A stretch of 64,000 nucleotides of DNA from Nitrospiraceae bacterium (GTDB lineage Bacteria; Nitrospirota; Nitrospiria; Nitrospirales; Nitrospiraceae). The notes under the pieces were generated by a model. It saw only the letters and a program-made list of their open reading frames with translations, was not told where the DNA came from and searched no databases. Shown here in pieces: positions 29,582 to 55,836 of the stretch. Where the stretch lies: assembly GCA_919902665.1 (NCBI GenBank), contig CAKKRK010000142.1, forward strand, positions 1 to 64,000. The letters run 5' to 3'. Positions within the stretch are counted from its first letter, which is position 1; each line of letters begins with the position of its first letter. The position numbers and the translations under genes were made by a program.

Positions 29582-30041
<460 letters not shown>

Positions 30042-30098
30042 CGGGAAGGTCCAAGCGGTAGAACATCATCGTGGAGGATCTCTCAAAGGAGGAAGAGT

Positions 30099-31508
30099 AT
30101 GAATGTGCGTGAAGTACTGGAGTTTGCCAAAAAAAACAAGGTCCGGATGGTGGATCTGAAATTCGTCGATTTGCCGGGCGTCTGGCAGCATATGACCATC
30201 CCGGTGAGCGAACTGACGGAGAATTTATTCAAGGATGGGTCTGGCCTCGATGGATCGTCGATCCGCGGCTGGAAAGCCATCAACAATAGTGACTTGTTGA
30301 TGGTGCCTGATCCGGCAACCGCCTGTTTGGACCCGTTTACTGCGGTTCCGACACTTAGTTTAACCGGCAATGTCGTGGATCCAATTTCTCGCGAAAATTA
30401 CGAGCGCGACCCCAGATTCATTGCCCAAAAGGCAGAGAAGTATCTCCAAAGCACCAAGATCGGCGACAACTCATTCTGGGGGCCGGAAGCCGAATTTTTC
30501 ATCTTCGATCATGCCCGGTACGATCAAACCAGCCACAGCGGCTTCTACTACCTGGACTCGGAAGAAGGCGCTTGGAACATGGGGCAAGAGGGGGTCAACC
30601 TGGGCGGAAAGATCCGCCATAAGCAAGGGTACTTCCCGGTGGCCCCGGCCGATACCCAACAAGACATCCGCAGTGAAATGGTGCTGGAGATGGAGAAAGT
30701 CGGCATCGAGGTGGAGAAGCACCATCACGAGACGGCTACGGCTGGCCAGGCCGAAATCGATATCCGATTCGATTCCCTTGTGCGGACCGCGGACAAGATG
30801 ATGCTGTACAAGTACATCGTCAAAAACGTGGCGCGTCGACATGGGAAGACGGTGACCTTCATGCCGAAGCCGCTCTTCAGTGATGCCGGATCCGGGATGC
30901 ATACGCACCAGAGCATCTGGAAGGATGGGAAACCCCTCTTTGCCGGGAAGGACTATGCCGGGATCTCGCAGCTCTGTTTATATTATATCGGCGGCATTCT
31001 GAAACATGCGCCGGCGCTGGCGGCCTTTACAAATCCGACGACGAATTCATATAAGCGCATCACGCCAGGGTTCGAAGCCCCGGTGTTGCTGGCGTATTCC
31101 AGCCGGAACCGATCGGCCGGGATCCGCATTCCCATGTACTCCCCGAGCCCGAAGGCCAAGCGGATTGAAGTGCGGTTTCCTGATCCCTCCTGCAATCCCT
31201 ATTTGGCCTTCTCCGCGATGCTCATGGCGGGGCTCGACGGCATTCAGAATAAGATCAATCCCGGCGAGCCGGCCGAAAAAGACCTCTATGATCTCGATCC
31301 GAAGGAGGCTGCGAGCATTCCGACCATGCCCGGGAGTCTCGACGAGGCGCTCAACAGCTTGGAGAAGGACTACCAATTTCTGCTCAAGGGAGAGGTGTTT
31401 ACCGAGGACCTAATCGAGGCCTGGATCGGCTACAAGCGAAGCAAGGAGATCGATCCGATGCGTTTGCGACCGCATCCGTACGAGTTTTTCCTCTACTACG
31501 ATGTCTAA
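30099..31508 (+). CDS. glnA: Glutamine synthetase type I
   Basis: Condenses glutamate and ammonia with ATP to form glutamine. The 469-residue GSI-beta subunit starts [39 protein letters not shown] and has the [41 protein letters not shown] and NRSAGIRIP motifs of the active site. Tyr397 in [11 protein letters not shown] is the adenylylation site, consistent with the GlnE-like genes at 51,768-55,836. AAAGGAGGA precedes ATG 30099. No clear terminator follows. Confidence 0.96.
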
Positions 31509-51767: not shown

Positions 51768-54047
51768 CTACAAGCGTCCGAATGTTCGTTCAAAGAACTC
51801 TTTGGTGAGCTTCATATGCTGCGCGATATCCGTTTGCAGATGGCGTGCGCCGGCCTGCCAGTCATCCGTTGTGTAGCCAACCCGGCGGGCGAGGAAGATA
51901 AATTCGTCGGAGTCGGTTGGTGGAAGGACCCGATCTTTGGCGTTGCCACGGACCATGCGTAGGCCGTCGATGAGCATGCGGATAAAGAAGTAGGCCTTGC
52001 GGAGAATCTCGCCGTCTTGCCTCGTGACAAGGCCACAATCGACGAGGGTCGCCAGCGCCTGCATGGTGTTGGGAGTGCGCAGGACAGGGAGCCGATGGCC
52101 ATGCATGATTTGGAGGTATTGCATGGCATACTCGATATCGACGATACCACCGGGGCTATGCTTCAAGTTGACGGTGTCGCGCTCCACCAGCTGCTTGAGT
52201 TGCTGTCGGCGCAAGGCGAGGGCATCGGGGATATTCCAGGTTTTCCCGCTATAAACGTAGCTGTCGCGATGGGCCTCGACGCGCTTTCCAAGGGCCGCAT
52301 CACCCGCTACATGCCGCAGCTTGATCAATGACTGACGCTCGAATGGCGCAGCCAGGCCGCTGTCACTGTAGTACTTGGTGATCTCGTCAAAGGGATTGGT
52401 CAAAGAGCCTTTTCCGCCGTGAGGGCGGAGACGCACGTCGAGGTGAAAGATGCCTTCCTGCTTGGCCTCGATCCACTGCAGCAGTTTGGCCCCCAACCGC
52501 TCAAAGTATTCGCTGTTCTCGATCGGCTGCTTACCGGCTGTGCGACCGGCGTCCTCATACACGAACATCACTTCAATGTCAGAGGCGTAGCCGAGTTCCT
52601 TGCCACCGAACTTGCCCAAGCCCAGTACGGTGAAGGGACAGGGTTTTTTATTGGCCAAGCGTGGCGGGCCATGCATCGCATTCAGCTTGGCTTGGCAGTC
52701 TTTCAAGCTCCGATCGAGGATAACTTCGGCTAGTTGGGTCAATGCAGCTGAAAAATCAGGCAGCGCTGTGTCTGGCTCGACGATGTGCTTCATATCGATG
52801 CGGAACAGTTCACGGTCCTTGAGGCTATTCAGCGCGGCCTTTCGATCCTCGTCGGTTTTGGCTTTATTCACCAGGCGATCGAGTTCCTTGCGAAGCGTAG
52901 CTTTTGGGGTTATGAGAGGCGCATCGCGATAATCTTGCAGGAGCGGCAGCAGGTTGCTGTGTTGACGGCGCAGAAAGTCTTCCCAGAGAAAATCGCTGGC
53001 CCCGAGCAGACGAGCGAGCAGGGGAAACGTTTTCTTGTCGCTGAGAAACGCCAAGGCTTCTTGCTGGGCTTTCCCTTTCGCTTGCTGCACCGTCAGGTCA
53101 AGAAACTGGTCAAAGGCCTCCAAGGCTTTGGTTGGGTCAGGAGCCCATGTCAGGGCATGGGTGAATTGTTTGATGAGCACGGCCGTCTGGCGCAGCTGCT
53201 GCTGATCGGTTGCATCGGTCAGCTTCTGGCCATGGCGGTTGCGGACATAGAAGCGATCGTGAATCTTCCCTTCCTCGACGTCGAACTGTGCTTTGGAAAT
53301 GTACACGTTGCGCATGGCCAGGGCGTTGGCGAAGGCGTACAGAAAAGCTGGGGTATCGTCCGACCGGATATCCATGACCGTGTCGGTGGGAGATTGGCTG
53401 TTGTCGAATGTGATCTGCACCGGATGGAGCAGACCACCAAAAGATGCACGGCGCTTGCCGAGCTGTTCGACCAGCCGTCGATTCACTGCACAGCGGGCCT
53501 CCGTAAATTGTCCTTTATCGAGCAATCTGATTACTAAGTGGAGCGCATCCGCCAGGTGTTTCTGTTGAATGTCGCCCAATTCCATTCCTGGTACCGGCAG
53601 CACACGGAACACATCGACGATTTTTTTTCTGGTCAGCCCTGGACTGCCCGTGGTGCGGGCGCGCGGTCCGTATCCTGCCCAACTTGTGCGAGCGAGCGGC
53701 ACAGCCGCTTGTTCGCCAAACGTATAAATATCTCCTTCTTCGATATTCAGGCCGAATGCAGAGAGCAGGCCGCAAATCGTGGCGAATTCAGAGAAGTAAT
53801 CATAGGCCACGATCGTGACCTCAAATCGTGTATCGTGCAGCTCGGTAAAGGCAATTGCGCAGGGGCGTTCCGGGGTGAGCTGAGCCGTCGAGCGGATATG
53901 AGCGGCAATCGTCGGGGGTTCGAATTTCCGGAAATATTCTGGGTCCATGCGGCTGGAAAAATCATGTAGGATCTCGGGCGCAATATCAGGACACAGGGGA
54001 CGGACTGTGCTGAGCAGCGCGGTACGATCGGGAGCGTCAGTGGACAT
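51768..54047 (-). CDS. ACT-ACT-GlnE-type adenylyltransferase
   Basis: A 759-residue protein. Residues about 75-155 (FEVTIVAYDYFSEFATICGLLSAFGLNIEEGDIYT) and 210-285 (TVMDIRSDDTPAFLYAFANALAMRNVYISKAQFDVEEGKIHDRFYVRN) resemble the tandem ACT domains of GlnD. From about 330 it matches one half of GlnE: the nucleotidyltransferase motif GLGKFGGKELGYASDIEVMFVYED near 474, FHLDVRLRPHGGKGSL, and SPGGIVDIEYAMQYLQIMHG. The ELGYxSD wording resembles the adenylylating (AT) half. It probably adenylylates glutamine synthetase. The ACT fusion suggests direct glutamine sensing, an inference. It shares a 64-nt divergent promoter region with the next gene. Confidence 0.75.
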   Translation of the reverse strand: MSTDAPDRTALLSTVRPLCPDIAPEILHDFSSRMDPEYFRKFEPPTIAAHIRSTAQLTPERPCAIAFTELHDTRFEVTIVAYDYFSEFATICGLLSAFGLNIEEGDIYTFGEQAAVPLARTSWAGYGPRARTTGSPGLTRKKIVDVFRVLPVPGMELGDIQQKHLADALHLVIRLLDKGQFTEARCAVNRRLVEQLGKRRASFGGLLHPVQITFDNSQSPTDTVMDIRSDDTPAFLYAFANALAMRNVYISKAQFDVEEGKIHDRFYVRNRHGQKLTDATDQQQLRQTAVLIKQFTHALTWAPDPTKALEAFDQFLDLTVQQAKGKAQQEALAFLSDKKTFPLLARLLGASDFLWEDFLRRQHSNLLPLLQDYRDAPLITPKATLRKELDRLVNKAKTDEDRKAALNSLKDRELFRIDMKHIVEPDTALPDFSAALTQLAEVILDRSLKDCQAKLNAMHGPPRLANKKPCPFTVLGLGKFGGKELGYASDIEVMFVYEDAGRTAGKQPIENSEYFERLGAKLLQWIEAKQEGIFHLDVRLRPHGGKGSLTNPFDEITKYYSDSGLAAPFERQSLIKLRHVAGDAALGKRVEAHRDSYVYSGKTWNIPDALALRRQQLKQLVERDTVNLKHSPGGIVDIEYAMQYLQIMHGHRLPVLRTPNTMQALATLVDCGLVTRQDGEILRKAYFFIRMLIDGLRMVRGNAKDRVLPPTDSDEFIFLARRVGYTTDDWQAGARHLQTDIAQHMKLTKEFFERTFGRL

Positions 54048-54111
54048 GGACGTTAGTATACCCGAATGGTTTCATTGTGCGTAGAGGAACCCCTGAGTAT
54101 AATGCCGCTCC

Positions 54112-55836
54112 ATGCCTCGAAGAATTCCCACACCCCACTCGTCGCCTTTTCCATCGTGGGCTGAAGGTCGTTCCGATAAGCCAGATCCCACGCCTATCCT
54201 GCTGGAGGAGAAGCGAAATGCTGAGGGGATCCGGGTGATTTTGTCTGCCTATGGCCTGCGTGATCCCAATCAAGCGGACCGTAATCTCGATGCCATGGCC
54301 GGTGACCCCATCCAACGACGGCGGCTGGCCGACATTCTGCCGATGATGATGGAATCCATTTCACGGACGGCCGATCCCGATCAGGCGCTGAACCACTGGG
54401 AGCGCATGTTGGAGAGTGTCTCCCGCACCTCATTTCTCGACTATCTGCGCACGTCGCCGCGCATGCTCGATCTTCTCTGTGTGATCTTCGGCAACAGCGA
54501 TGCCTTGACCTTTACGCTCATTCGAGATCCCACCGTGGTGTACTGGCTGGCTGAGGAGGATGTCCTCGCACGACCTCCGACGCGGAAGGGTATGGAGCGC
54601 GCGCTGTACGCAAGCATCGGGCATCTCACCTCCAAAGAATCGAAGCTGGATGCGCTGCGCCGGTTCCAGCGGCGAGAAATGTTACGGATCGGTGTGCGGG
54701 ATCTCCTCCGCCTCTCGACGGTCCCGGAAACGACCAGCTCGTTGTCGGATTTGGCTTGCCTCCTGATTCATGCGGCCTACGAGGTTGTCGATGCCGATCT
54801 CCGTCAGCAATATGGCATTCCCATGCATCAGAATCGGCAGCGACGGTGGGTGGAGACCAAGTTTACGGTGATCGGGATGGGCAAGCTTGGCGGACATGAA
54901 TTGAATTACAGCTCCGATGTGGACCTAATCTACCTCTATGAGTCCCACGATGGAGAGACCAGAGCGCCGAGAGGGAGGCGTGCGGCTATCCCAGCCGGCG
55001 TCGGCATTTCTAATGAAGAATATTTTGAGATCCTTGCCCGTGAACTCACCAGGGTGTTGGTCGAACCTACCAGGGAAGGCTACGTCTTTCGAGTCGATCT
55101 GCGGTTGCGGGCCGAGGGTTCTGTTGGCCAGTTGGCTCGCTCGCTGGTCGAGTATCGGAAATATTATGCGACACGCGGACAGGTCTGGGAGCGGTTGGCG
55201 TTGCTCAAAGCGTGGCCGGTCGCCGGATCCCATGATGTCGGACAGGCGTTTCTCAAGTTGGTGAAGCCGTTTGTATTGGGGGCAGGGAGCACCATGGATC
55301 GCGCGAACGCCTTGGCGATTGTGGAAGATGTCCGCGCCGTCAAGGACATGATCGATGCCAAAATGTCGGACCGTGGCCACGCACAGCGCAACGTAAAGCT
55401 GGGGACCGGCGGGATTCGAGAGATCGAGTTTTTCGTGCAGACCATTCAAGTCCTGGCCGGACGAAAGGTGCCTGCGCTATTGGACCGGAGCACCCTCGCT
55501 TCACTGAACCGGCTGGCCAAGAAAAAACTGCTCTCGACCGAAGAACGCGATGCGCTGGCCGCCGCGTATCTCTTCCTGCGCGATGTTGAGCATAAGTTGC
55601 AGATGGTCGATGATCTCCAGACCCATGCGTTGCCCGAACGCTCAGAAGAGTTGGAGCGTTGTGCGGTCCGGATGGGATATGGTGCACAGGATCGGATGAA
55701 GGCAGCCAAATTGTTTCATGTCGATCATCAACACCATACCGAGATGGTCCATCGTACCTTCAGATCGTTCTTTATCGAGCCAACGACGTCGCCTGTCTTT
55801 AAAGTTATGCTCAGGGCCATCGGACTCAGGCATTAG
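54112..55836 (+). CDS. GlnE N-terminal-half-like protein (adenylyl-removing type)
   Basis: A 574-residue protein matching a single GlnE half. It has the nucleotidyltransferase motif VIGMGKLGGHELNYSSDVDLIYLYE at about 254-278, FRVDLRLRAEGSVGQLARSLVEYRKYYATRGQVWERLALLKAWPVAGS, KLGTGGIREIEFFVQ and the helical RDVEHKLQMVDDLQTHALP region. ELNYSSD resembles the adenylyl-removing (AR) half of E. coli GlnE. Full GlnE has two such halves in about 950 residues; here the second half is on the divergent gene. Both predicted metal-binding Asp are present, so it should be catalytic. Target: Tyr397 of the glnA product. Confidence 0.8.
   Translation: MPRRIPTPHSSPFPSWAEGRSDKPDPTPILLEEKRNAEGIRVILSAYGLRDPNQADRNLDAMAGDPIQRRRLADILPMMMESISRTADPDQALNHWERMLESVSRTSFLDYLRTSPRMLDLLCVIFGNSDALTFTLIRDPTVVYWLAEEDVLARPPTRKGMERALYASIGHLTSKESKLDALRRFQRREMLRIGVRDLLRLSTVPETTSSLSDLACLLIHAAYEVVDADLRQQYGIPMHQNRQRRWVETKFTVIGMGKLGGHELNYSSDVDLIYLYESHDGETRAPRGRRAAIPAGVGISNEEYFEILARELTRVLVEPTREGYVFRVDLRLRAEGSVGQLARSLVEYRKYYATRGQVWERLALLKAWPVAGSHDVGQAFLKLVKPFVLGAGSTMDRANALAIVEDVRAVKDMIDAKMSDRGHAQRNVKLGTGGIREIEFFVQTIQVLAGRKVPALLDRSTLASLNRLAKKKLLSTEERDALAAAYLFLRDVEHKLQMVDDLQTHALPERSEELERCAVRMGYGAQDRMKAAKLFHVDHQHHTEMVHRTFRSFFIEPTTSPVFKVMLRAIGLRH

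Follow-up and report, generated by a model that had tools for sequence, protein, structure and literature searches.

A split GlnE pair with a GlnD-type sensor module in Nitrospira

We analyzed a 64,000-nucleotide (nt) window of a Nitrospiraceae genome (assembly GCA_919902665.1, contig CAKKRK010000142.1, positions 1 to 64,000), in which GlnE, the enzyme that adenylylates and deadenylylates glutamine synthetase (GS), is divided between two divergent genes, one of them carrying the linker and paired ACT domains that form the C-terminus of GlnD, the PII uridylyltransferase/uridylyl-removing enzyme. The minus-strand gene (51768-54047) encodes a 759-aa protein, denoted ACT-AT, that combines a GlnD-type linker-ACT-ACT module with one GlnE nucleotidyltransferase unit of the adenylyltransferase (AT) lineage, as delineated by its open reading frame, profiles, phylogeny, AlphaFold and HHalign. 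The plus-strand gene (54112-55836) encodes a 574-aa protein, denoted AR, which consists of one GlnE unit of the deadenylylating (N-terminal) lineage, with the motif ELNYSSDVD, identified from its open reading frame, profiles and phylogeny. The open reading frames are separated by a 64-nt intergenic region (54048-54111).

Each protein contains the PF03710 unit once (ACT-AT, E = 1.6e-42, 146 bits; AR, E = 1.2e-60, 205 bits; curated cut-off, 24), followed by the helical PF08335 domain, and the G-G...D-x-[DE] motif and the third Asp are conserved in both. A PF03710 search of the whole 3.56-Mb genome (240 contigs, 99.9% complete) returned these two genes as the sole matches, with no one-piece glnE, so that units of the AT and AR lineages are both present, each in its own polypeptide. 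The split pair is conserved across the class Nitrospiria down to about 45% identity, which excludes chance, and its anatomy is, for practical purposes, certain. A prior sequence-only reading of the window had described two divergent GlnE-unit genes 64 nt apart with intact motifs, and this description holds.

The N-terminal module of ACT-AT is homologous to the whole C-terminus of GlnD. Residues 19-288 aligned collinearly with the GlnD linker and both ACT domains (HHalign, 99.6%, 233 columns, E = 1.2e-23), and the NCBIfam GlnD models PRK05007 and TIGR01693 (620-843) matched the same region. The module comprises a helical linker (residues 19-62; 53862-53993, minus strand), collinear with the linker preceding the GlnD ACT domains in both types of comparison, a first ACT-like domain (residues 63-198; 53454-53861, minus strand) with a low-confidence loop at residues 113-136, and a second ACT-like domain (residues 205-301; 53145-53435, minus strand) matching PF24931. 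No HD domain was found in the minus-strand protein by profile search, and its transferase is of the GlnE type, not the GlnD nucleotidyltransferase.

An AlphaFold2 model of ACT-AT built with 32 relatives (mean predicted local distance difference test score (pLDDT) 82.5) contains ACT-like folds at approximately residues 63-198 and 205-301, with the strands and helices fitting the beta-alpha-beta-beta-alpha arrangement twice, and a full GlnE unit, nucleotidyltransferase plus C-terminal helical domain, at residues 299-757 (51777-53153, minus strand). When compared with solved structures using VIA-align, this unit yielded Z-scores of 40.6 to 1v4a and 39.6 to 3k7d and aligned with one unit of 1v4a, leaving no extra domain over; in GlnE, the response to PII runs through a central regulatory domain. 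Folded alone, the module (pLDDT 80.0) resembles the tandem-ACT regulatory domains of aspartate kinase (Z 12.0) and threonine dehydratase (Z 8.7-9.3). Because a sequence search of solved structures with the module gave no significant match, we assign the ACT fold on the strength of the profile and structure comparisons. Profiles, HHalign and structure prediction agree with the proposal of the sequence-only reading that two ACT-like domains resembling the end of GlnD precede the transferase, and ACT folds are predicted in the region it had indicated (residues 75-285).

Separately, the N-terminal part of the modeled module (residues 7-192; 53472-54029, minus strand) resembles an N-terminal part of the 180-kDa Mycobacterium smegmatis glutamate dehydrogenase (Z 10.7). 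This model-based likeness suggests that the GlnD linker-ACT piece might be more widely common to nitrogen enzymes.

Assignment of the two halves to the adenylylating and deadenylylating lineages

To assign the halves, we built a tree from units cut out of 9 full-length GlnE proteins from other Nitrospirota classes, the Escherichia coli enzyme, GlnE of 6 other bacteria, and 18 split pairs. With two actinobacterial sequences omitted, the C-terminal units of the full-length enzymes grouped with the minus-strand protein, and the N-terminal units grouped with the plus-strand protein, with support of 100/99.7. Scored against AT and AR profiles, all 18 minus-strand proteins favored AT, and all 18 plus-strand proteins favored AR, the latter with margins of 44-131 bits. 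The lineages are those that had been assigned on motifs at the outset, and the AT affiliation of the minus-strand protein is well supported by these sequence comparisons. In E. coli GlnE, adenylylation is the task of the C-terminal domain and deadenylylation that of the N-terminal one (PMC12409994); judged by lineage, the plus-strand protein would thus remove adenosine monophosphate (AMP) and the minus-strand protein would add it.

Several observations weigh against this assignment of the minus-strand protein. Its profile margin in favor of AT is small (8-48 bits), the corresponding AT/AR branch is weaker in the tree that includes the actinobacterial sequences, and the family deviates at positions that do not vary in either AR or AT units, with N407 in place of Arg, D-x-E in place of D-x-D, F569 in place of Trp, and L577 in place of Ala. 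The acidic substitution lies in the catalytic motif ELGYASDIE (within G-K-F-G-G-K-E-L-G-Y-A-S-D-I-E, residues 478-492; 52572-52616, minus strand), where the alignment of relatives shows the second acid, Glu, to be invariant. The D-x-E form falls within the general nucleotidyltransferase pattern.

In the same analysis, the N- and C-terminal GlnE units of the two Actinomycetota (L140, L145) clustered together instead of joining their N- and C-terminal counterparts from other bacteria, perhaps through long-branch attraction or gene conversion.

The fusion is conserved across the class Nitrospiria

Fused ACT-AT was found at full or near-full length in approximately 100 of the 114 sampled genomes of the class. 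The matches listed outside the class all lack the ACT module, starting no earlier than profile position 284, and most fall in two-unit frames of 930-1300 aa; the other Nitrospirota classes encode ordinary one-piece GlnE. In three long GlnE frames (1070-1308 aa) checked from these classes, no ACT domains were detected, a search for relatives of the fusion on plasmids gave ordinary GlnE only, and a scan of genome contigs returned Nitrospira-type loci only; the survey in effect covers Nitrospirota.

The host is itself a Nitrospira, the nearest relatives of its minus-strand protein, at up to 98% identity, being encoded in Nitrospira genomes. It is of the complete ammonia-oxidizing (comammox) type, because a fragment of ammonia monooxygenase (PF02461) lies at the edge of one of its contigs (C120, positions 1-327).

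Deletion of glnD in a mostly comammox clade

A GlnD search over the class yielded matches with E-values around 1e-200 in nearly all other genera. In 28 of the 37 genomes of the window's own genus, including two single-contig genomes, the search picked up nothing but the split enzyme's ACT module. Among 50 named genomes, the 28 that lack GlnD fall into a single group surrounding the window; the two other absences are isolated draft genomes. In Nitrospira that retain GlnD, the operon reads glnB-glnD-glnA, and glnD is drawn in Nitrospira nitrogen clusters in a published figure, going by its legend (PMC6311188, Fig. 3). Of 17 loci read from the clade, 15 have glnA starting 57-78 nt after glnB; the pattern did not resolve the other two. 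The window belongs to this set: glnB, encoding PII (29703-30041, plus strand), is followed after 57 nt (30042-30098), where glnD would stand in the GlnD-bearing relatives, by glnA, encoding GS (30099-31508, plus strand). Ammonia monooxygenase is found in 20 of the 28 GlnD-less genomes versus 2 of 20 with GlnD. Thus, the deletion of glnD from the glnB-glnD-glnA operon in the window's mostly comammox clade is well supported, leaving ACT-AT as the only GlnD-type sensor. Since most genera of the class possess both GlnD and ACT-AT, the fusion arose before glnD was lost.

The modifiable tyrosines have been retained. The codons for PII Tyr51 (29853-29855) and the adenylylation site Tyr397 of GS (31287-31289), which the sequence-only reading had noted, were located in the window; the GS tyrosine (L-Y-D-L site) is kept in the relatives' loci as well, and no loss of PII Tyr51 following glnD loss was seen in the loci of the clade.

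For the window's own genome, the loss is likely, with one complication. A 3.4-kb contig binned with this genome (C65; L118 1-3442) carries a 739-residue GlnD frame cut by the contig end together with the truncated beginning of another glnA gene. Were this GlnD native, the usual PII uridylylation cycle would be operating and the ACT module would be merely a second input, a combination with precedent, since most other genera of the class carry GlnD alongside ACT-AT. However, all 28 relatives in the clade, including a sister at 98% identity, lack GlnD, and the window's own operon lacks glnD. Moreover, the GlnD on the short contig has its closest relatives in L055, L059 (CG24E) and L038 and falls outside the Nitrospira moscoviensis group, next to which the split enzymes place the window's genome. 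Given this discordant placement and the glnB-glnA junction, the contig is most likely a mis-binned or acquired piece, and we regard a native GlnD as improbable.

Ligand loops of the ACT module and alternative explanations

The beta1-alpha1 loops, where ACT domains bind their ligands, are among the most conserved stretches of the module, with 50-55% invariant positions versus 19% for the module overall. The loop motif is D-Y-F-S-E-F in the first domain and D-D-T-P-A-F-L-Y in the second, compared to D-D-x-x-G-L-L-Y in GlnD. A fair reading of these sequences is that the ligand site has been conserved but altered. Three observations count against the explanation that we favor below. The loop glycine of GlnD is replaced in both domains, by Glu87 (23 of 25 sequences) and Ala234 (25 of 25), so that the module may bind a different ligand or none; the module evolves approximately 1.7 times faster than the AT part; and a comparison of rates after glnD loss gave no clear sign of tighter constraint on the module.

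The first alternative, unlikely but the strongest of those considered, is that the module senses an amino acid or metabolite other than glutamine, its binding loops having changed after capture from GlnD. The loop residues are nearly invariant within the family yet unlike those of GlnD, with Y-F-S-E-F for P-G-[IL]-F in the first domain and Ala for Gly in the second. Against this, the second loop otherwise matches its GlnD counterpart (DDxx[G/A][L/F]LY), GS adenylylation has glutamine as its established signal, and the linked gene is glnA. A second possibility, which we consider rather unlikely, is that the module binds no ligand and instead serves for dimerization or docking, tethering ACT-AT to AR, PII or GS now that the split has removed the covalent connection. 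Two opposed activities on separate proteins would need coordination, and the glycines are missing, but conservation peaks in the ligand loops rather than being spread over the surface of the module. Finally, modification of a protein other than GS by ACT-AT, to which its long branch (1.46) and its changes at positions invariant in every other GlnE unit might point, is the least probable alternative, given that the gene is always paired with that of AR, adjoins glnA in a sister family, falls on the AT side of the tree, and resides in a genome without any other AT unit.

A proposed model for the control of glutamine synthetase

The explanation that we favor as a whole, evenly balanced between being right and wrong in our estimation, is a split GS adenylylation/deadenylylation enzyme of the class Nitrospiria, each protein having a single activity, with an ACT module that senses nitrogen sufficiency and is the sole GlnD-type sensor in the clade. 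Under this model, AR would take AMP off Tyr397 of GS and ACT-AT would put it on. The module most likely recognizes an amino acid that reports nitrogen sufficiency, for which glutamine is the first candidate and about an even bet, and the bound ligand would raise adenylylation, switching GS off. Following the later deletion of glnD in the clade, PII would no longer be uridylylated by GlnD, and unmodified PII may still act on the pair via 2-oxoglutarate and ATP/ADP. Somewhat more tentatively, the clade could have dropped the PII uridylylation cycle altogether in favor of one-cycle control, in which an adenylyltransferase with a GlnD sensor reads glutamine directly and a separate enzyme reverses the modification.

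Direct control of GS adenylylation by glutamine, which the sequence-only reading had raised, is plausible, and the idea is strengthened by the class-wide arrangement and the glnD deletion in the clade, both hidden from that reading. Jiang and co-workers reportedly observed in 2007 that glutamine directly stimulates the E. coli adenylyltransferase, so the phenomenon as such is already known. The Rhodospirillum rubrum enzyme was reported to be unresponsive to glutamine, judging from the title of a paper cited in PMC3480911, and the GlnD ACT pair is regarded, in cautious terms, as a glutamine sensor (PMC3173338). In Caulobacter lacking glnD, unmodified PII drives GlnE to adenylylate GS, resulting in glutamine auxotrophy that is relieved by deletion of glnE (PMC4848567). 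A clade without glnD therefore needs its own brake on the adenylylating enzyme, and by analogy, the ACT pair taken from a glutamine sensor would be the obvious candidate.

Relation to known systems

The split pair shares with E. coli GlnE (1v4a, 3k7d) both nucleotidyltransferase units, the catalytic acids, the lineage of each half, and the substrate tyrosine of GS, but the E. coli enzyme is one bifunctional protein of 946 aa, whereas here two genes lie on opposite strands, the AT half bears the GlnD ACT module, and its catalytic motif is D-x-E. With GlnD, ACT-AT has in common the collinear linker-ACT-ACT module, which is C-terminal in GlnD and N-terminal here, on a GS adenylyltransferase that lacks an HD domain or uridylyltransferase unit and in which the loop glycines are replaced. 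A single adenylylating unit can work apart from the removing unit, as seen with the free-standing engineered half uAT, which functions in vivo (PMC9249168), and with E. coli domain constructs (Jaggi 1997, as cited in PMC12409994). Those, however, are man-made truncations without a sensor module, whereas the Nitrospira split is natural and old. Plant ACR proteins (Pfam ACT_ACR9_3rd; PMC3173338) likewise tie a GlnD-like ACT pair to glutamine synthetase biology, but they are stand-alone ACT repeats without an enzyme domain. In the open literature, to which our search was confined, subscription papers being outside its scope, no paper on the split ACT-bearing GlnE architecture or on the loss of glnD was found. 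What would be new is the dedicated ACT sensor, the natural split, and the loss of the upstream cycle, making this a variant of GlnE/GlnD rather than a new kind of system.

The cascade that adenylylates GS is the textbook case of two-cycle signaling, and in the class Nitrospiria, the glutamine sensor appears to have relocated from GlnD, which acts upstream, to the enzyme downstream of it. One clade of ecological importance no longer has the upstream enzyme, and nitrogen status there is probably sensed by a rewired route. Because the fusion predates this loss, the group provides a natural test of how a signaling layer becomes dispensable, with a bearing on the control of assimilation in complete ammonia oxidizers, which live on very low ammonium.

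Gene order and interrupted copies

The genes for AR and ACT-AT are neighbors in all intact pairs, 79 of them divergent and 5 convergent (families f4, f5, f7 and f8 of the class). In the sister family that links the pair to GS, the order is AR, ACT-AT, glnA and, after about 1.5 kb, glnB, with approximately 100 nt between ACT-AT and glnA. One further count as convergent stems from a broken copy in Nitrospira sp. CG24B (L063, L079; NEWS02000004.1), where ACT-AT is broken into two segments (residues 1-437 and 423-759) separated by about 9 kb of the same contig, through rearrangement or assembly error. Another homologue (G018:C53:7807-9975) was matched as two adjacent blocks split at residue 454/484, possibly reflecting a gap or frame change.

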